From a virus, in the IMG/VR virus record IMGVR_UViG_3300049793_000097, positions 1 to 44,149 of that record: DNA of 44,149 bases; one strand, 5' to 3'. Both the position numbers and the translations under genes were made by a program. This document shows, one piece after another, positions 8,431 to 22,733 of the stretch (positions within the stretch are counted from its first letter, which is position 1; each line of letters opens with the position of its first letter). The notes under the pieces are model-generated. The model saw only the letters and a program-made list of their open reading frames with translations. It searched no databases and was not told where the DNA came from.

Positions 8431-9165
8431 TCAGGCTGCCGATGCCTGGTTGATCGATGGGGGTATGTCGATTGCCAACCGATGGTCCGGACCAGTCACC
8501 TTCACAACGCGGCAGCCGGCAAGCCTTGATCCGATCGCTGCGCCAATGTCTCCACCGATGAAGTCGGCGAGCTGGCCCGGTGTTTTGTTCGATGTGACGA
8601 TCAGGTCGGTTCCGCGCGTCAGGGCGTTGTCGATCGCGGCGAACAGTTGTGACGCGGCCCACTCGGACGGCTTGAATTTGTCGATGTCATCGAGCGCGAG
8701 CGCGGTCTTTGCCCGGAGCGCGGCGGTTGCCTTGGCACGCTCTTCGTCGCCGTAAGCCGCCGTGAGATTCGCCAGGAATGTGGGGACGGAAGTCCATGTG
8801 ATCGGCTTCCAGTACAGGCGCGTCCAGACCGCCGCAGCGGCGAGCCCGGTCTTACCCCGGCCAACGTCACCAATCAAGATCAGTTGTCCGCCAGCGCGCG
8901 CCCATTCGTTCGCGGCCTTGACCGCAGCGCGTGGCGCGGGTGATGTTGAGAACCGCATCAAGCGGAGTTCCTTTGGCATCATCTCGGACACGCGGCGACG
9001 GTGTTGGTCATCGAGCCGGTCGGCTTCGCGCTTCTCGTCAGCGGTGACCATCTGCGATTCACATTCGTCGCAGCGGAGCATTGATGCAAGCGAATTCGCA
9101 GCGCGATTTTCGACGCGCTCGATGCCCGTCGATTTCCCACAATCTCGGCAGGGGTAGGTTTTCAT
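8431..9165 (-). CDS. DnaC/IstB-like AAA+ helicase loader
   Basis: This 244-residue AAA+ ATPase should load the host replicative helicase on the phage origin. The N-terminus has a four-cysteine zinc finger (Cys6, Cys9, Cys32, Cys35). Walker A is GDVGRGKT at 99-106, Walker B LALDDID at 156-162, sensor 1 TSN at 191-193, and a probable arginine finger Arg214 in GSRL. These are hallmarks of the DnaC/DnaI/IstB family, and the length is typical. It directly follows the replication initiator with a four-base overlap, the order seen in many temperate phages (O-P-like). IstB transposition ATPases share the motifs but no transposase is nearby. Confidence 0.85.
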   Translation of the reverse strand: MKTYPCRDCGKSTGIERVENRAANSLASMLRCDECESQMVTADEKREADRLDDQHRRRVSEMMPKELRLMRFSTSPAPRAAVKAANEWARAGGQLILIGDVGRGKTGLAAAAVWTRLYWKPITWTSVPTFLANLTAAYGDEERAKATAALRAKTALALDDIDKFKPSEWAASQLFAAIDNALTRGTDLIVTSNKTPGQLADFIGGDIGAAIGSRLAGCRVVKVTGPDHRLAIDIPPSINQASAA

Positions 9166-9881
9166 GCGACCTCAATTCCGGCGTCGTATTTGGCTGAATC
9201 TGTTTGTGTGGATGAAGGCGCGGAACGTCCCGGCAGCGGATCACGCCAACGGCGTTCTTCTATCCACTTGTGGAGGTTCGGGCAGCCTTCGATTGACTGA
9301 TCGGTGAAGGCGTGTGCGGCGAGGTAAAGCTCGGCAGCGCCGGGAATATCGTCGGGGAGTTCGTCGCGGACTTTCCAGAGTGCCTTTTCGCGCAGCTCGG
9401 AGTGACTTCCTCGGCACCTGGTCGATGGCCACAATTTCTCTAAGGAGTTAAGGACTAGATCTAACCCCTTACCCCTAACACCTTTCGCGGGCGCACCCGC
9501 GCGTGAGGGTTGCAAAACATTGTTTGCAATTTCTTTTAACGGTTCCGCACAACCATGCGGGTTTGCGGGGTATCCCATGCTCGGTTCTTTCGGATGAGGA
9601 TTTTGGTGCTCAGTGAAGTTCTCAACCTGAACGTAAGCCTTATCCTCTACCTCATACCGGGTAATGAAGCCACCGTTGGCGAGGTCGGTCAACACAGCGT
9701 CAAAGTCCACTTCGAAGTACGGCAGGATCTTTACCTTGAGTTCGCGTGGCTGGTCCCTCAGCCGCCCCTCACGGTCGGCGTGACACCACAGTCCGGCGAA
9801 CGCCAGCATGCCGTAGGCGTTGCAATCCGCGAGTTCCGCGTCGGTGAAGAATGAAGGCTTCAAGTCACGTTTCCGCGGCAC
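9162..9881 (-). CDS. Replication initiator / replisome organiser
   Basis: This is a 239-residue protein starting at GTG 9881 with GAGAGG ten bases upstream. The N-terminal domain (FFTDAELADCNAYGMLAFAG, then WCHADREGRLRDQPRELKVK, FDAVLTDLANGGFITRYEV) matches the winged-helix replisome-organiser pattern of temperate phages, which binds origin DNA. A linker and a second, helical C-terminal domain follow (EKALWKVRDELPDDIPGAAE). It lies directly before the helicase loader, so the pair should recruit host DnaB. The linker-coding DNA is AT-rich and repeat-bearing and may contain the origin. Confidence 0.75.
   Translation of the reverse strand: MPRKRDLKPSFFTDAELADCNAYGMLAFAGLWCHADREGRLRDQPRELKVKILPYFEVDFDAVLTDLANGGFITRYEVEDKAYVQVENFTEHQNPHPKEPSMGYPANPHGCAEPLKEIANNVLQPSRAGAPAKGVRGKGLDLVLNSLEKLWPSTRCRGSHSELREKALWKVRDELPDDIPGAAELYLAAHAFTDQSIEGCPNLHKWIEERRWRDPLPGRSAPSSTQTDSAKYDAGIEVA
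9432..9545. other. Candidate replication origin inside the initiator gene
   Basis: The DNA coding the linker of the initiator is markedly richer in A and T than its surroundings. It holds a run of related TAAGG / AACCCC(T) motifs in both orientations (about 9440-9482), a GCGGG/CCCGC hairpin (9487-9500) and a 7-base inverted repeat TTGCAAA / TTTGCAA (9510-9516, 9523-9529). In lambda-like phages the origin lies within the initiator gene at just this place. The call is by analogy; no experimental motif is recognised. Confidence 0.4.
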
Positions 9882-9883
9882 TT

Positions 9884-10213
9884 CTACGCGGCCTCTCGCA
9901 ACGTCCGAAGCAACGTCTGCCCGATGCTCGCCCGCGTCTCCAGAACCCCCACAGCCGCCTTACAAGCGTCATAGGTAGCCTCGGCTGCTGTCAGGTCTTT
10001 GTACGCCTGAGAACCGCCTACAGCGACCTTGGAGCGCTCCCTTTTCTCTGTTGTGTTGCCGGGGGCTTTGGCGAAGGCGAGGGCCTGCTCATACTCGACT
10101 TCACGGACCAAGCGGGCTCGGTTTCCTGCGGCTTGTGAGAAATCATTTTGACGTTCGGCGAGGTCTTGCTCGATCGCTTGCAGGGTGCGGAGGATTGCTG
10201 CGGGATCGTTCAC
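9884..10213 (-). CDS. Helical phage protein of the recombination module
   Basis: This is a 109-residue, almost wholly alpha-helical protein (ILRTLQAIEQDLAERQNDFS, TAAEATYDACKAAVGVLETR, ending ASIGQTLLRTLREA). I recall similar short helical proteins beside phage single-strand annealing genes in actinophages, but not a named function. It lies between the coiled-coil recombination partner and the replication initiator, two bases from the initiator start. A scaffold or annealing-accessory role is inferred from context. Confidence 0.6.
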   Translation of the reverse strand: MNDPAAILRTLQAIEQDLAERQNDFSQAAGNRARLVREVEYEQALAFAKAPGNTTEKRERSKVAVGGSQAYKDLTAAEATYDACKAAVGVLETRASIGQTLLRTLREAA

Positions 10214-10216
10214 GGG

Positions 10217-11107
10217 TCAGACCGCCAACCTTGAGACTTGCTCGATCTTCACGCCGGGGATGTCGCGAATACCGGCCTTGACCACGGCGTTGAGCTTCTT
10301 TTCGTCAACGATCAGGTATTCGTCGGGAAGCTGCGAGCGATCGAGCAGTGTCCATTCCCAGACCTTTTTACGGGTCGCCTTGCCGTTCGCTGTGCGGACG
10401 GTTGCCGCAACCTCTTCGCGCTCGGCCAACTCAAAGGCCGGTCGCTCCTCGCGCTTGGCTGCGAGTTCTTCCTGCGCCTTACGTGCGACCTCTGCGGCCT
10501 CGATTGCCTTGGCCTCGGCCTCGGGATCGGCTTTTTCAGCCATCGCCTCTGACGCCTTGCGCGCGGCTTCTGCCGCTTCCTTGGCTACACGGTTGGCCTC
10601 CTCACGCTCGGCGTCGATGCGCGCCTGCTCGGCCTTTTGCTTTTCAAGGGCCTCGGCTTCCCGCCTTGCATTCTCTTCGCGAACGCGGCGCTCCTTGGCC
10701 TCCTGGTATGCGATGACCTTCGGCTTGAGGATTGCGGTCGCCTCTTCGAGCGGAGACTTCAGTTTGTTGAAGAAGTTTTGCGCGTTGGTCTTGGCTGCGT
10801 TGATCGGATTGACGACCTTCTTGCGTTCCTCCTCAACTGACTTGAGACTGCGCTTGATGTCGTTGAGCGCCTCGATCGCGTCGGCCTCTTCGGTGGCGTT
10901 CGTGACCTTCATGGCGAGAGCGCCGGCCACGATCGGGCCGATCTCCTGATTCTGCTTTTCGCCGATCGCTTCGAGGTCTTCACGCTTCGTGACTATCTGT
11001 CCCGTAACTTCTGCGTCGGATTCAGCCTGCACGTATTCGACGGGGTCGGGGACCACGGTTGTTTTTGCAACCGGGACGAAGTCCGGGGTTGCGGTTTGGT
11101 CGGTCAT
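10217..11107 (-). CDS. Coiled-coil protein of the recombination module
   Basis: This is a 296-residue protein from ATG 11107, coupled by ATGA to the putative annealing protein. Residues about 40-110 carry alternating heptads, then a very long charged alanine/glutamate-rich helix (QEAKERRVREENARREAEAL and onward to about residue 215) predicts an extended coiled coil. A compact C-terminal domain (KVWEWTLLDRSQLPDEYLIV, then GIRDIPGVKIEQ) ends it. Phages often place a protein of this look next to Erf/RecT-like genes. It may hold together the recombination complex. An upstream 46-residue extension was rejected. Confidence 0.65.
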   Translation of the reverse strand: MTDQTATPDFVPVAKTTVVPDPVEYVQAESDAEVTGQIVTKREDLEAIGEKQNQEIGPIVAGALAMKVTNATEEADAIEALNDIKRSLKSVEEERKKVVNPINAAKTNAQNFFNKLKSPLEEATAILKPKVIAYQEAKERRVREENARREAEALEKQKAEQARIDAEREEANRVAKEAAEAARKASEAMAEKADPEAEAKAIEAAEVARKAQEELAAKREERPAFELAEREEVAATVRTANGKATRKKVWEWTLLDRSQLPDEYLIVDEKKLNAVVKAGIRDIPGVKIEQVSRLAV

Positions 11108-12000
11108 GCTGATGCCTCCGGTGGGGTTGCGGCGTCGAGGCTGTAGTTGCGCCACTTGCCGTCTTTGATGGATACGGTGATGTCGAATCGGGTGCCGGTC
11201 AGGGACGCCAGCGAGCCACCAACGGGCGGCTCCATGCCGCCGCAAACGTGCTGAACAAACTCGTTGTAGTCCTGCCGCGTCGGTTCAAGCCAGAGTTTTT
11301 CCGCCGCTGGCTTTCCGCCGTTTGCGTTGGCTACGGCCGCCACCAAGATCACCTTGTCCTTGCCCTTGGCCTTGCGCCACACGGCTGAGGCGACCGTCGC
11401 GGTGAATCGCTCGCCTTCGGGCAGAACGTCCCACTGGTAGGCGTCCTCGTCAATGCGCCCCTGGGCATTCATCTGCTGCATCTCTTCGGCGGAGGTCGAT
11501 TCAAAGCCGCCGAGCTGCATCACAAATCCAAGTGGGCCACGGAGAGCGCGGGACGTTGCGCGAGTCTGCGCCATCCCCTGAAGCTCGAACGTCGGCGAGA
11601 ACTTGCGCTTCTCTTCCTCGGTCGTGCAAGATGATGTTGCGCGTCCTACTACGCGCCCGTCGAGCGTGACGGCCTCAACGGTGCATTGCCAGCCGTTTTC
11701 CAGCTGAACCATGCCGCCGATCATTTCCTGGGGGAAGACGCCGACGATGGTTCCAAGCGTTCGCCAGCCTTCAACCTTCACAAACTCTTTGCGCTCGATC
11801 ACGTCGACCATTCCGGCCTTCACGATCACGGGCTTGATGCCCTCGGCAACGCGAATGGCTTCGGCCATTTCTTCGAGCGGGTCATCCTTGTGAAAGAGCT
11901 TCACGCCTTCAATCGGTGCCGCGACTAGTTCAAGCCCTGGCACTTCGATGGCGTCGCCGGTTTCGACTACCTCTGCATCTATGATTTCTGTATCGGGCAT
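11104..12000 (-). CDS. Putative single-strand annealing (recombination) protein
   Basis: This is a 298-residue protein. The central segment VEGWRTLGTIVGVFPQ, a basic and cysteine-containing strand region, and the motif MAQTRATSRALRGPLGFVMQ resemble actinophage recombination proteins related in pattern to the Erf/Rad52-type annealers (Q-x-R-A-x-S-R-A-L being the conserved helix). Such proteins coat and anneal single-stranded DNA during phage recombination. The C-terminal third (AVWRKAKGKDKVILVAAVAN) may bind the partner protein. GGAG lies 9 bases before ATG 12000. Family assignment is from memory and needs a profile search; placement in a replication/recombination block supports it. Confidence 0.55.
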   Translation of the reverse strand: MPDTEIIDAEVVETGDAIEVPGLELVAAPIEGVKLFHKDDPLEEMAEAIRVAEGIKPVIVKAGMVDVIERKEFVKVEGWRTLGTIVGVFPQEMIGGMVQLENGWQCTVEAVTLDGRVVGRATSSCTTEEEKRKFSPTFELQGMAQTRATSRALRGPLGFVMQLGGFESTSAEEMQQMNAQGRIDEDAYQWDVLPEGERFTATVASAVWRKAKGKDKVILVAAVANANGGKPAAEKLWLEPTRQDYNEFVQHVCGGMEPPVGGSLASLTGTRFDITVSIKDGKWRNYSLDAATPPEASA

Positions 12001-12664: not shown

Positions 12665-12732
12665 GCTGCGCTCCATTCAGACCAACGCCGAGAGGCAAGG
12701 TCGTGTGTGTAGGTTGAGGTCGAAGGGCTCAT
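12661..12732 (-). CDS. 23-residue peptide bridging two genes
   Basis: A minimal frame ([20 protein letters not shown] and three more residues) starts at ATG 12732, overlapping the stop of the repeat protein as ATGA, and ends overlapping the next ATG at 12664 as ATGA. Both junctions are exact. Its main role may be to carry reinitiating ribosomes from the repeat protein to the next gene; a peptide function cannot be judged. Confidence 0.4.
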   Translation of the reverse strand: MSPSTSTYTHDLASRRWSEWSAA

Positions 12733-13724
12733 GCGGGAACCGGATTTGTGGTGGCCGCCTTTAGAAGTTCTTCCAACTTGTTGCTTGACGCGGCCACATA
12801 GGACTGATACTTGTCCGCATCCCACGCATCCCACGCATCCCACGCAGCCCACGCAGCCCACGCATCCCACGCAGCCCACGCATCCCACGCAGCCCGCGCA
12901 TCCCACGCAGCCCGCGCAGCCCACGCAGCCCACGCAGCCCGCGCATCCCACGCAGCCCGCGCATCCCACGCAGCCCGCGCATCCCACGCAGCCCGCGCAT
13001 CCCACGCAGCCCACGCAGCCCGCGCATCCCACGCAGCCCACGCATCCCACGCAGCCCGCGCATCCCACGCAGCCCGCGCATCCCACGCAGCCCACGCAGC
13101 CCACGCAGCCCACGCAGCCCACGCATCCCACGCAGCCCGCGCAGCCCGCGCATCCCACGCATCCCGCGCAGCCCACGCATCCCACGCAGCCCGCGCAGCC
13201 CACGCATCCCGCGCAGCCTCAGCGATTTCCTTGGCTTCGCCTGCGGAAATCTCTTCGCCTTCGGCCATTCGGCTGTAGGCGTCGCCGACACGCTGAATGA
13301 CGGCCTTCACGTCTTCGGCCTCGACAGTCTTGATTAGACCGTGCTCGGGGTCGATCATCAGCCATGCAGCAAACTGGTTCCAGATGTTCGAGAGGTCGGC
13401 ACCGGGAGCGATTGCGCCCATGAAGCGTTCTGGCCATTCTTTCTGATGGTCGCTGCCGCGTTTGAACGCCTCGAAGATGCCTTCATAAAGGTGGACCAGT
13501 TGCGCCGGGATTCCGTACTCGTCTGTGATGGCCTGGTGGTTGCCGTCCGGGTTGTGTGTGACACACCCGACTCCGCACACCTGCAACTTCTCGCCATGCT
13601 TTTGGTAGTACGCGCCGCCAATGATCTCATCAGCTTGCTTGTGGAGATTGATCTGCCCCATCACTGATGTTTTGAGGGCTTCGTCGCCGTGGTAGGCGAT
13701 AAGAGTTTCTGTGGTGGTGTTCAT
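12729..13724 (-). CDS. Phage protein with tryptophan-rich tripeptide repeat
   Basis: This is a 331-residue protein from ATG 13724 ([18 protein letters not shown]). Residues 1-165 form a folded domain with [40 protein letters not shown] and [17 protein letters not shown] recall this domain from phage and mobile-element proteins whose C-termini are long Ala/Trp/Arg repeats. Residues about 169-302 are 44 tandem copies of Ala-(Trp or Arg)-(Asp or Ala), about 30 of them with Trp, probably one long helix. The end ([20 protein letters not shown]) is helical again. The role is unknown; filament, pore or multivalent binding surfaces are possibilities. It overlaps both neighbours by four bases. Confidence 0.75.
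12816..13211. repeat. 44 tandem copies of a 9-base coding repeat
   Basis: This is exactly 44 units of 9 bases without indels. On the coding strand each unit is GCG, then TGG or CGG, then GAT or GCT. Only two bases vary; the alanine codon and all other positions never change. Counts are AWD 17, AWA 13, ARA 12, ARD 2. No synonymous change is seen, so the array is either very young or kept uniform by slippage and unequal exchange. Frames on both strands stay open across it, giving several false long ORFs. Confidence 0.95.
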
Positions 13725-15434: not shown

Positions 15435-15842
15435 ATGAGCGCCGAGTGGGCAGCCCGAGTCAGAGCGGCGAGGGCGTATGCCGATGTGAACCAGTTGCCG
15501 TTCGCCAAAGCAACAGGCCTCGGAAAGAAACGACTTCAGGAGTTGGAGTCGGGCAGCGGCGAGCCGATGACCCCGAATGAGCTAATTCTTGTGGCGAAGC
15601 ACTCCGGATTGCCGGAGGAGTTCTTCACAATCGATTGGGAAGTGCTTACCGCACCAATCGCAGCTGACGAGCTGTTCGATCGACTTGCGACGATCGAGGG
15701 GCAGATTGAGTTCGGCCTGTCGCTCTTGCAGGGCATGGTTGGATCGGACATTGTGAACAAGGCAGAAGAGGTCGTGCGGGCAGCGCGCGAACGAGATCAG
15801 CAAGCTTCCGAAGATCAAAGCCAACATTCGGATCAAGCATGA
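15435..15842 (+). CDS. XRE-family phage repressor (CI-like)
   Basis: A 135-residue protein has an N-terminal XRE helix-turn-helix: WAARVRAARAYADVNQLPFA, KATGLGKKRLQELESGSGEP, TPNELILVAKHSGLPEEFF. The C-terminal half is helical (ADELFDRLATIEGQIEFGLS) and would dimerise; there is no S24 peptidase domain, so any induction would not be by RecA-dependent self-cleavage. It is the only regulator on the plus strand and faces the early promoter, so it should maintain lysogeny. GGAGG sits only one base before the ATG, unusually close, and translation may be leaderless. Its stop overlaps the next start as ATGA. Confidence 0.8.
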   Translation: MSAEWAARVRAARAYADVNQLPFAKATGLGKKRLQELESGSGEPMTPNELILVAKHSGLPEEFFTIDWEVLTAPIAADELFDRLATIEGQIEFGLSLLQGMVGSDIVNKAEEVVRAARERDQQASEDQSQHSDQA

Positions 15843-16392: not shown

Positions 16393-16908
16393 CTATATGT
16401 AGCGACGAACGCACATGATGTCGCTGCGGTAGTCAATGGGGAGGTAGTACGGCGCTGACTCTGAGCCGTGGCTGACTACGTAGGGCTTGCGGGTGATTGG
16501 GTGGAGCCTGCGAACGATTGCGGTGTGTTTGCCGGTCCCGCCGTTGCCATAGATCACCACGTCGCCGCGTCGGCAATGACGCCACTTGTGGATCTCGAAG
16601 CCGTGTTCAAGCAGCGTTCCGGTGTAGCCGCCTGCCCACTTCTGACCGTTCACAATGTCACCGATGGAGTAGTGGTCAAGGCCGTTCCAGAGACACCACG
16701 TAACGAAGGCCGAGCAGTCGGCATAGTGAGGAAACTTGCCCTTCCATGCTTTGAGCAGCAGGCGAATGCCGTCCCAACGACGACCGTTCTGCGTGTAGTG
16801 GATCGCGGGTGCGCGCTTTAGGCCGAGATCCATCGCATGTGCGGTGAGACTCCGGGCCTTGATCTTCTCGCGGCCGTTCAGGCCGGAAGGCGCGTTGCGG
16901 TTGGCCAT
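16393..16908 (-). CDS. NlpC/P60 or CHAP-type endolysin
   Basis: This 171-residue cell-wall hydrolase has catalytic Cys65 in YADCSAFVTWCLWNG and His128 in GDVVIYGNGGTGKHTAIV, the order and spacing of NlpC/P60-CHAP cysteine peptidases that cut peptide bonds in peptidoglycan. The N-terminal 35 residues are basic and helical and may bind the wall. No signal peptide is seen, so release should depend on the holin encoded just upstream. ATG 16908 has GGGGA six to seven bases before it. It is the last gene of the late operon. Confidence 0.8.
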   Translation of the reverse strand: MANRNAPSGLNGREKIKARSLTAHAMDLGLKRAPAIHYTQNGRRWDGIRLLLKAWKGKFPHYADCSAFVTWCLWNGLDHYSIGDIVNGQKWAGGYTGTLLEHGFEIHKWRHCRRGDVVIYGNGGTGKHTAIVRRLHPITRKPYVVSHGSESAPYYLPIDYRSDIMCVRRYI

Positions 16909-16909
16909 G

Positions 16910-17188
16910 TCATTCCCCTGCCTTGATGGGGACGTGGACCTTTCCGGCATCGCCGAGGTCTAGATCGGGTGGCACGAGGTTGGCTGGCGCTGTGACCTTC
17001 TGACGCGTGACAACGCCGCCACTCAGAATCAACGCGACGTAGCCGATAAGCACGTCTGTCGGCACGCTGATCTTCGCGATCTGGTTGAGAGCGACGCCGA
17101 TCAGCGCCGCGAGACCCGAGTTGATCAACGCGGGTTCGGTGCGGTAGAGCGCACGGATGTAACTCCATGCGAGTTTGAGGTAAAGCAT
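16910..17188 (-). CDS. Putative holin
   Basis: This 92-residue protein has a basic amphipathic start (LKLAWSYIRALYRTEPALI) and two hydrophobic segments (SGLAALIGVALNQIA and TDVLIGYVALILSGGVV), then a polar tail. Size, topology and position directly before the endolysin fit a holin that opens the membrane at lysis. GGGAG lies 7 bases before the ATG. About 30 bases upstream to the next frame hold nothing else. Confidence 0.7.
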   Translation of the reverse strand: MLYLKLAWSYIRALYRTEPALINSGLAALIGVALNQIAKISVPTDVLIGYVALILSGGVVTRQKVTAPANLVPPDLDLGDAGKVHVPIKAGE

Positions 17189-19418: not shown

Positions 19419-22400
19419 TTAGAAGCCAGAGCCGCCGAAGCCGCTACCACCAAAGCCACCCCCGCCAAATCCGCCGGCATTCTTCTGGGGGTACTTGGGT
19501 GCGGCGTAGCCCTGCTTGGTTTCAAGCTGGTTGATCTGCCGCTCAAGTTCCTTGCGGCGCTGGACGGCCTTCACATATTCGGGCGTGCCCTTTTTCTTGT
19601 ACTGCGTTGAAAGCGCGCTGATCCGGTCGTTGAGCTTCGAGTGTTCTTTGTAGGCGTCTTCGAGCTTCTTCTTGCTCGGATCGAACGGGGTGAGCTTCAC
19701 ACCTGTAGCGAGTGCGACGGCCGAGAGCTTGTTCGTCTGACCGCGCGAGCCTTCGCCCTTGGTCATCTGCTGAATCGCAAAGTTCGTCTCGGGAAGCTGG
19801 CGGGCGATGTAGTCGGCCTTGGCGTCCCAACCCCACACCATCTTTCCGGTCTTCTTGTCAAAGAACTTCTTGACGCCGAACTTCTTCTTGAGTCCTTCGG
19901 GCAGATCCTTGACGATCTCGGGGGCGGCGACTGTCGGGGCGTAGCCCTTGCGGATCGGACCCTGAAAGAACACTGAGTAGTTCGCTGCGATCTCGGGCAA
20001 CATCTTGTAGAAGGTGAGCCGGTTGGCGACATTCTGAATCTGTGTTGCCGGATTCAGACTCGCCGAATTCAGGTCGGTCACCGGAAGTCCAAGAATCACG
20101 TCAAAGGTCGTGCCCCCGACCTTCACCGGGATCGGCAGGCCGCGCTGCTGGTAGTCCTTGTGCTGGCGGATGTACTGCTCGTAGTCGCCGTATCCCGCCG
20201 CCTTGGCTGTGTCGTTCAGAAGCTTGTTGAAGGTTGCGTATTTGCCGGGCCGCTCGAGAACCTTTGTTGCCTGAAGGCGTGAGTTGCGGGCATAGAACGT
20301 CCAGAACGGAATCGCCCTTCTGATGTGGCGTTCCGCGTTGGTCATGTCGCCGTAGTCGAAGTGATGCTTGTTGACCCAGTCGGCGGCCTCGGAAGGTGAG
20401 AGGCCGCGCTTGCGGGCACTGAGAAATGTTGCCATGCGCGGCAGGTCTTCGCGGTATTGCGAGGCCGCTGAAAGCGAGCGGGTCGCCTTGCCGACCTTCG
20501 TCTTGGCAGCGTCGAGCTCTAGGAGCGAGTTCACGTCCTTACCGATAAAGCCGGTTCCGACTGCGCCTTCCTTTTCGGCTTCGCGCAAGAGCTGGTCGTA
20601 GGTGACTGGCTTGCCGCCGATCTTGACGGTCTTTTGAAGTTCGGGAACCGTCGCGCGCTTGTCGGTGAATGATTCGGCGGATGCTTCGACCCTGTTGCGT
20701 GCGTGCCGTGCCTTCAGAATTGCGAGGGCTTCCTTGCCGGATTTTGCGGTTGTGTCAGCCAGGTACGCATTGAAAGAGTCGCCGATCAGGTTGCGAGCGT
20801 GGTAGCTCGGAAGCGGCGCGGTGACGGCAAGCTTCCACGCTCCTTGTACACGGTCATATGAGCGGCCCAGCGGATTGTCTGATTGGACGCCGATGCCGCT
20901 GACCGCGCGCTTGGCATCTTCCACAACGCGATCCTTCAGGATCACGTAGTTCGAGCGGGCCACTTCCTCTTTGGAGAGGTTGCGTCCGTGTTCAGTGTGC
21001 TTGCCGCTTGCGATTCGCGAAATGAGGTTCTTGTCCTCTTCGCTGTTCGACGCGACGCGCTCAGGTCCGCGAGGCGTGACCTTGTAGATCGACTCGCCTT
21101 CGTGCAGTTGCAGCGGCTTACCCGGTTGGACCTTGCGGCCCGCCTTGACGATGTTCTGCCAGTGTTCGCCGAGCGCCGCGCTCTTGGCTGCACGTTCGAG
21201 CTTGTGGGCGTAAACCTTCGGAACGTCTTTTGAGAAGGCAAGCGGCGATTCTGCCGCGTGTCCCATTTCAGCGTTCGCCTCATCGATGTTTCCGACGTGC
21301 GTGCGCTGATGGGCCTTCTCCGGCTTCACCTTCGACGGAAGCTTCTGCTTCTTCGCCGCCTTCGCCGCCTTCTTGTCGACGTACTTGCTTTGAAAGTGTG
21401 GGAAGTAGCCATCGTCGATCGATGTGTCACGGACGCCAGCCTTGCGCTCGGCCTCAAGAGACTTCCTGAAATCTGCCGCCACGTTCTTTGCGACGTCGCC
21501 CTTCGGCTTACCCGATTCAATGTCGGAAATGACCTTGTCGTGCTCGCCCCCTGACGCCTTAGTGAGTCCCTTCGCCTTGCGCTCAGTCGTGCGAGTTGCA
21601 TCGGTGATCGCTGCGCGAGCGCGTCGGCCTGAAGTGCGGACCGCCTTGTGTTCCGCCTTGGTCACATCCTTTGGACGGAAGTCGTGCAGGAACGATTCGC
21701 CGAGCGCTTGACCACCTGCGGATTCGCGGACCTTGGTTGACCCCTTGCTGACGCCGAGCGTCTTTGAGAGTCCAGCCGTGGCCTTGCCGCTTGTGTGCTT
21801 TTCAACGGTCTTGTCGGTGAAGGGGATGTGGACGCGAAGGCCCGCCTGGATTCCCTTGTGCTTGGGGAGTTTGGACACGGCGGTCGCAGCCGCCTTGCGT
21901 CCCGCGCGGTTGGCCACTTCCTTGGTCGCTCCCGATTTCAGCGCATCCTCGGTCGCCTTGATCGCCGCCTTTTTAGCGACCTGCTTCGCCGCCGCTTCTG
22001 CTGGGGTACTCGCGCCAAACGTCGCGTAGGTCGTTGGGTCAAGCACCACGTCAAGGCCGAAGCCAGCAACAGCCTGAACCGCCTTGCTGTGAACGCCTGC
22101 GGCCTTGAGCACTGACGAAAACCCGCCCCGATCCTTGCCTTTCAATCCTGCTTTCGCGCCTTCGAGAACGTTCTGCCCCTTGACGGCAGCCTTCGCTCCG
22201 GCGGAGATTGCGTAGGACGGGCGCGACGTTACGTCCATGACGGCGGCTGAGTCCTTAGTCGCCTTCGCTGCGTTTCGGCGAAATTCCTTGACGCTTGGAA
22301 TACCTGCTGCTTTTACCTTGACCTGATGGGCCTTGGCGTCCGAAAGGGTCGAGCCACCGGAGCGATCGAGCCGAGCGTGGGCAACTCCCGATGCCGCAGA

Positions 22401-22733
22401 ATCGAATTCGCTCTGCGCGAGTGCAAGCGCTCCGCGTGCGTCCTGAACCGCCGCCTTTGGCTGCCGACCCAGGAAGTGGATGATCTTTGAAACCGAGTCG
22501 CCGCCCTTGGGCGCACTCTTCCCCGCGCGTTCGTAGCGGTTCTTCGGCGCAGTAGGAAGCTTGGGGCGCTCCGGGGTCTTAGCGTTGCTTTTGACCTGCT
22601 TCCAAGTTTTCGGAGCTTCACGCTTCTTGCCGCGCTTCTTCGGGGTTGCCACAAGTTCAAGCGGCGTGACCTTTCGAGCGGGCTTCTTCGCGTGTGACTT
22701 CTTACCGCCTAGGCGGTCAGCACGGGTGGCCAC
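19419..22733 (-). CDS. Large internal virion / ejection protein
   Basis: This 1104-residue protein, the largest in the genome, starts at GTG 22733. The first 350 residues are Lys/Ala-rich and helical. The middle includes DRVQGAWKLAVTAPLPSYHA then RNLIGDSFNAYLAD, and further on RAIPFWTFYARNSRLQAT; RN-F/I-x-D motifs with FW-x-F resemble 'large polyvalent protein' associated domains of phage internal proteins. The last 20 residues are Gly/Phe repeats (GGFGGGGFGGSGF). Podoviruses carry large proteins of this kind inside the head and inject them with DNA. No polymerase or transglycosylase motif was recognised. Confidence 0.6.
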   Translation of the reverse strand: MATRADRLGGKKSHAKKPARKVTPLELVATPKKRGKKREAPKTWKQVKSNAKTPERPKLPTAPKNRYERAGKSAPKGGDSVSKIIHFLGRQPKAAVQDARGALALAQSEFDSAASGVAHARLDRSGGSTLSDAKAHQVKVKAAGIPSVKEFRRNAAKATKDSAAVMDVTSRPSYAISAGAKAAVKGQNVLEGAKAGLKGKDRGGFSSVLKAAGVHSKAVQAVAGFGLDVVLDPTTYATFGASTPAEAAAKQVAKKAAIKATEDALKSGATKEVANRAGRKAAATAVSKLPKHKGIQAGLRVHIPFTDKTVEKHTSGKATAGLSKTLGVSKGSTKVRESAGGQALGESFLHDFRPKDVTKAEHKAVRTSGRRARAAITDATRTTERKAKGLTKASGGEHDKVISDIESGKPKGDVAKNVAADFRKSLEAERKAGVRDTSIDDGYFPHFQSKYVDKKAAKAAKKQKLPSKVKPEKAHQRTHVGNIDEANAEMGHAAESPLAFSKDVPKVYAHKLERAAKSAALGEHWQNIVKAGRKVQPGKPLQLHEGESIYKVTPRGPERVASNSEEDKNLISRIASGKHTEHGRNLSKEEVARSNYVILKDRVVEDAKRAVSGIGVQSDNPLGRSYDRVQGAWKLAVTAPLPSYHARNLIGDSFNAYLADTTAKSGKEALAILKARHARNRVEASAESFTDKRATVPELQKTVKIGGKPVTYDQLLREAEKEGAVGTGFIGKDVNSLLELDAAKTKVGKATRSLSAASQYREDLPRMATFLSARKRGLSPSEAADWVNKHHFDYGDMTNAERHIRRAIPFWTFYARNSRLQATKVLERPGKYATFNKLLNDTAKAAGYGDYEQYIRQHKDYQQRGLPIPVKVGGTTFDVILGLPVTDLNSASLNPATQIQNVANRLTFYKMLPEIAANYSVFFQGPIRKGYAPTVAAPEIVKDLPEGLKKKFGVKKFFDKKTGKMVWGWDAKADYIARQLPETNFAIQQMTKGEGSRGQTNKLSAVALATGVKLTPFDPSKKKLEDAYKEHSKLNDRISALSTQYKKKGTPEYVKAVQRRKELERQINQLETKQGYAAPKYPQKNAGGFGGGGFGGSGFGGSGF

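Follow-up and report, generated by a model that had tools for sequence, protein, structure and literature searches.

The stretch of DNA analyzed here (hereafter, the window) is a virus record of 44,149 bases. It comes from a temperate phage and contains genes for an integrase, a terminase, a portal protein, a replication initiation protein and a DnaC-like loader. On its minus strand, positions 12729-13724 form an open reading frame of 331 amino acids, with an ATG start at 13724 and a stop at 12729, whose N-terminus has homologs elsewhere. The protein is composed of a helical N-terminal domain of about 165 residues (13230-13724), an array of 44 units of 9 bp each (12819-13214), and a conserved C-terminal segment of about 28 residues that includes a helix (12732-12818). 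The two flanking parts are supported by alignments of relatives and by AlphaFold2 (AF2) pLDDT values.

Within the early region, the gene lies upstream of those for recombination and replication. Codirectional early genes follow downstream (8431-12000, minus strand) and, as judged by PHROGs matches, encode a phrog_19042 protein, an exonuclease-family protein, the replication initiation protein and the DnaC-like loader. On the other side, the early region is bounded by an ORF on the plus strand (15435-15842) that appears repressor-like with a helix-turn-helix, an assignment made by visual inspection of its translation. When 24 kb of the window were compared with phage records by megablast, no match was obtained. 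Two further minus-strand ORFs were recorded: one of 1104 residues among the structural genes (19419-22733), with no match in PHROGs, and one of 185 residues (16393-16950), which weakly matches a minor tail protein in PHROGs and contains a DCSAFVTW motif that recalls NlpC/P60 cell-wall hydrolases.

Read in frame, every unit of the array is GCG-[T/C]GG-G[A/C]T, i.e., A-[W/R]-[D/A]. GCG is followed by TGG (30 units) or CGG (14 units) and then by GAT or GCT, which yields 17 AWD, 13 AWA, 12 ARA and 2 ARD units, or 30 Trp, 14 Arg and 19 Asp residues, with zero synonymous changes. Regularity of this kind in a protein-coding stretch is far beyond chance. An earlier note, prepared from the sequence alone, had described a two-state array of 44 copies with about 30 tryptophans and no synonymous variation, and the codon count bears this out; the interval given there, 12816-13211, covers the same array one codon off the A-x-x phase. 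TRF places the array at 12816-13218 and scores it best at a period of 81 bp; likewise, its self-similarity peaks at a lag of nine units, or 81 bp (z = 3.95). The note also took alternating AWD and ARA as the trace of an older 18-base unit. AWD is indeed followed by ARA more often than expected (9 times vs. 4.6, p = 0.003), but the 81-bp period is stronger, and an 18-bp ancestral unit is absent as a general rule across arrays.

The N-terminal domain family

A profile scan of IMG/VR identified 297 relatives of the N-terminal domain (about 160 residues; family i), and isolate relatives occur in Xanthomonas phages, e.g., K1pha_60 of phage KPhi1. In alignments of 14-34 relatives, the residues H28, D32, G37, C50-x-x-G53-C54, H63, P73, LxD81, F84 and E85 of the window protein are conserved; those invariant across an alignment of 34 members include H28, G37, C50, G53, C54, H63, P73, F84 and E85. 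The window protein thus has the family residues, among them both cysteines and H28 and H63. Like the window protein, proteins of the KPhi1 type combine a conserved His, C-x3-C and His with an Ala-rich triplet tail and a C-terminal amphipathic helix. A stretch of 12 residues in the window protein aligns with an ADKLIELL-like helix that lies downstream of the arrays in its relatives, and its C-terminal segment is the counterpart of their xADKLIELLxxA. Tails of other members consist mostly of three-residue units (for example, AYA, AAD, SAE, AAN, SAL and LDR); most relatives carry S-A-A, A-Y-A, A-A-D, A-A-N or L-D-R units, unlike the A-[W/R]-[D/A] of the window. The earlier note had likened the N-terminal domain to phage and mobile-element proteins with similar tails, and kin of the domain were found in IMG/VR, in Xanthomonas phages and on plasmids. 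The plasmid sequences are distant: in sphingomonads, relatives lacking both the array and the cysteines adjoin thioredoxin genes. Distant relatives of this kind are L146:3831-4718, L147:3986-4870 and L149:2992-3831, the first of which directly precedes trxB and is accompanied by TldD-related peptidases and an M3 peptidase.

The window domain has no match in Pfam, NCBIfam, PADLOC or PDB, and none of 34 family members matched the PADLOC models of anti-phage defense proteins. Some members, and only some, weakly match phrog_3416, whose function is not known. Foldseek detected no solved structure related to the window protein and, in BFVD, only uncharacterized phage proteins; matches to Plasmodium_HRP were weak, compositional and below cut-off, and were discarded. 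Searches by sequence and by fold therefore found no known function for this protein, and in our literature searches the arrays were nowhere described. The scan also points to a large family, made up of early phage proteins, that is missing from Pfam and NCBIfam.

Length variability, which the earlier note had proposed, was observed: arrays of relatives range from 0 to 137 amino acids, with the proviso that copy numbers may be wrong, as the IMG/VR arrays are assembled sequences and many contigs stop partway through one. Homologs without the repeat, named in the note as evidence against its reading, exist in part: L123 is array-free, and the arrays of L048, L158 and L166 are degenerate. The array is therefore not essential to the fold, and some family members can do without it. 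In two other members, L092 and L121, the tail switches abruptly to sequence rich in Pro/Thr or Arg/Gly, a change that resembles the effect of a frameshift in the array.

The earlier note suggested that the array could bind nucleic acid, membrane or itself. With Arg or Trp at every third residue, it might bind nucleic acid and aid early replication or recombination. Its location upstream of genes for these processes is in line with such a role, as is the position of the relative L104 directly after a RecT gene. However, the window array contains 14 Arg vs. 19 Asp residues and so has no clear basic face, related tails have Y/D, S/E or N in place of W/R, and the window protein matches no DNA-binding family. 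We consider this role very unlikely.

Recurrence of the array in unrelated proteins

IMG/VR was also scanned with a degenerate DNA pattern that left silent bases free, and 43 stretches were detected. The array type is thus not unique to the window, and the earlier note understates the case. It is present in at least five N-terminal contexts: the window domain, DUF7666-like, Imm5_like (L004, L007, L018, L025 and L027), DUF6745 (L020) and one unnamed. DUF7666-like proteins (family ii), which score near or below the cut-off of PF24703 (20.5 bits for L013, cut-off 27), share with the window protein the A-[W/R]-[D/A] array, its codon flavors and its placement between an N-terminal domain and a C-terminal segment, but their N-terminal domain is unrelated and their C-terminus different. 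Similarly, the Imm5_like (PF21805; 26.9 bits for L004, cut-off 25) and DUF6745 (PF20530) proteins carry arrays of the window type and flavors between unrelated flanking domains. The window protein itself matches none of PF24703, PF21805 and PF20530.

Codon flavors cross family boundaries. GCG..GMT occurs in families i, ii and iii and with DUF6745, GCA..GMC in families i, iii and iv, and GCC with AGG in families i and ii. In L031 (3-716), an N-terminal domain of family i is joined through the array to a C-terminus of family ii, at a contig edge; this gene may be a natural recombinant or an assembly chimera. Judged from the sequences, exchange of the array module among unrelated families is a possibility.

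The L031 join also bears on whether the array is an artefact, i.e., a short-read collapse or a chimera. Many contigs terminate inside arrays, as do the records of XapPhi1 and XapPhi2. Nevertheless, isolates from different countries have nearly identical tails (KPhi1 and phiXaf18, 99.7%), and the open frame runs past the array into a conserved C-terminus, and we regard an artefact as highly improbable, although the number of units counted in the window could still be inaccurate. Sequences that begin or end inside arrays include L011/L040, L010/L015, L016/L033 and those of XapPhi1 and XapPhi2 (L138 and L139). Phage genomes that are circular or permuted appear to be broken at the arrays during assembly, and users of viral assemblies should be warned that such arrays break them and may wrongly join them.

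Silent and replacement variation

We analyzed 39 array runs comprising 747 units, counting deviations from the modal base of each array; positions 1, 2, 5, 6 and 7 of the unit were fixed by the search pattern and carry no information. The silent positions 3 and 9 deviated in 1 and 3 units, respectively, vs. 293 and 262 of the 747 units for the replacement positions 4 (W/R) and 8 (D/A). Silent bases were constant inside each array and different from array to array: the modal base was G in 25, T in 8, A in 4 and C in 2 arrays at position 3, and T in 21, C in 12, G in 5 and A in 1 at position 9. Most arrays use CGG for Arg, but L023, L026, L031, L044 and L155 use AGG. In 66 tails of other composition, the modal Ala codon accounted for a share of 0.86, compared with 0.47 in their N-terminal domains. 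Taken at the level of sequence, these comparisons demonstrate homogenization of each array, variation limited to two replacement positions, a nearly free order of units and presence in unrelated proteins, as well as independent codon solutions for Arg (CGG or AGG) and Ala (GCG, GCA, GCT or GCC). This evolutionary pattern has good support.

Coding minisatellites under concerted evolution are characterized by near-identical tandem units, block duplication and in-frame length change. The arrays resemble them in all three respects and bear their hallmark, silent identity within arrays and silent divergence between them. They differ in that variation is limited to two replacement positions, the same ones in unrelated genes, and silent sites are cleaner than replacement sites. 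In most arrays, the variable sites take two states only (T/C or T/A; A/C), unlike the targets of diversity-generating retroelements, in which adenine-directed variation to all bases goes with a reverse transcriptase and a template repeat. Codon bias was rejected as an explanation: arrays pick GCG, GCA, GCT or GCC individually and depart from the usage of their own N-terminal domains. Avoidance of palindromic restriction sites as the reason for the few silent flavors was likewise rejected by inspection, as the Arg units of the commonest flavor contain GCGC and CGCG.

Turnover was evident from comparisons of related genes. Array genes with 75-88% identical upstream DNA differ in array length and order. 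Tails of isolates that are 99.6-99.8% identical are nearly unchanged, with few substitutions and a gap of 3 bases at most; at 84% identity, isolate tails differ by more than 120 gap columns. Across arrays, the states follow one another almost at random, with weak effects only, and a register of salt bridges along a helix (R at i, D at i+4) was rejected because its effects were weak and inconsistent.

Could the arrays be neutral coding minisatellites, grown recently by slippage from a short seed that happened to contain W/R and D/A units, their composition unselected? The 81-bp block period of the window array, the existence of an array-free homolog and the absence of silent change, which is predicted for recent expansion from a seed, are in favor of this idea, and recency, given the block period, may partly account for the lack of silent change in the window array. 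However, nearly all 39 runs vary at the same two replacement positions despite different silent backgrounds and Arg codons. Mixed W/R, D/A arrays are read in one common frame inside recognizable genes, and runs of the pattern outside these genes (L011/L040, L012, L030, L032 and L034) lack the mixture, being almost pure Trp and in other or short frames; such runs are few, and as a control they are suggestive. Simulated neutral gain and loss of blocks with mutation also failed to reproduce the pattern, producing polymorphism at all nine sites. When turnover was combined with purifying selection but no composition rule, no more than 6 of 120 runs gave the pattern seen in the data. Once composition was constrained, 114 of 120 runs at a low mutation rate did so, with silent sites staying clean and minor fractions at positions 4 and 8 of 0.37 and 0.37 (observed, 0.39 and 0.35), figures that indicate sufficiency and not proof, as we set the composition limits to resemble the data. 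Overall, a neutral origin is unlikely. The earlier note had seen very recent expansion or ongoing homogenization, with two tolerated switch positions. Homogenization and the two positions agree with the present data; recent expansion alone is insufficient, because nearly every array varies at the same two replacement sites and at almost no silent one.

A predicted helical arm

The reading we favor, with a probability of roughly 0.55, is that the array is an Ala-rich helical arm of variable length, selected for composition and placed between a small globular domain and a closing helix. According to this model, 9-bp units would be gained and lost in blocks, which would homogenize each array, silent codons included. 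Selection would maintain the composition of the arm, with Ala at every third residue, a Trp/Arg mixture at the second position and an Asp/Glu plus Ala mixture at the third, and would act little on unit order or exact arm length. The arm of this early-infection protein might then serve as an interaction surface or as a spacer of adjustable length.

Structure predictions are consistent with an arm: arrays were predicted to be helical in two unrelated proteins, beside confidently predicted conserved segments. The AF2 model of the window protein (34 sequences; pLDDT 76.9, pTM 0.66) has a mostly confident helical N-terminal domain; most of residues 11-170 reach pLDDT 83-95, the exception being a Cys loop at about 31-60. 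The array is modeled as two long helices (161-234 and 243-326; block means of about 46-82), and the closing C-terminal helix has a block mean of about 97 (residues 311-320). In L017, a DUF7666-like protein, a beta domain precedes the array and a closing beta segment follows it; the array is predicted to be helical at both ends, with a low-confidence center (pLDDT 37-51). Because the post-array segment is conserved while array length varies freely, the arm probably leaves the domain and rejoins it, and a helical hairpin is plausible from the models; a helix or hairpin is not established by them, since confidence within arrays spans 37-88 and Ala-rich repeats are readily predicted to be helical. 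The helix proposed in the earlier note is therefore in line with AF2 at low to medium confidence; its single continuous spiral is less likely than a hairpin, given the conservation and confident prediction of the segment that follows the array.

Alternatively, the array could drive self-association, forming coiled oligomers or condensates with a valence set by copy number. Its multivalent composition of aromatic, Arg and acidic residues, free order and variable length would suit such a role; the confidently predicted closing helix favors an intramolecular arm instead, and self-association appears quite unlikely. A more far-reaching form of the arm model, which we find doubtful, is that the arrays represent a module selected only for composition and periodicity, rebuilt repeatedly by 9-bp turnover and traded among unrelated early proteins by recombination through arrays, that provides an expandable helical arm directed at a host target that changes fast.

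In these arrays, found in dozens of phages and several unrelated families, nature offers a case in which, inside a single array, conservation is higher at silent than at replacement sites, and composition-level selection on a low-complexity protein segment becomes testable. Finally, the DUF7666-like domain of L017 (3358-4230) shows a weak fold similarity to Arr, the rifampin ADP-ribosyltransferase (9iaf and 2hw2; probability 0.98 and 0.91, E about 0.02), which suggests that the DUF7666-like family has an ART-like fold.
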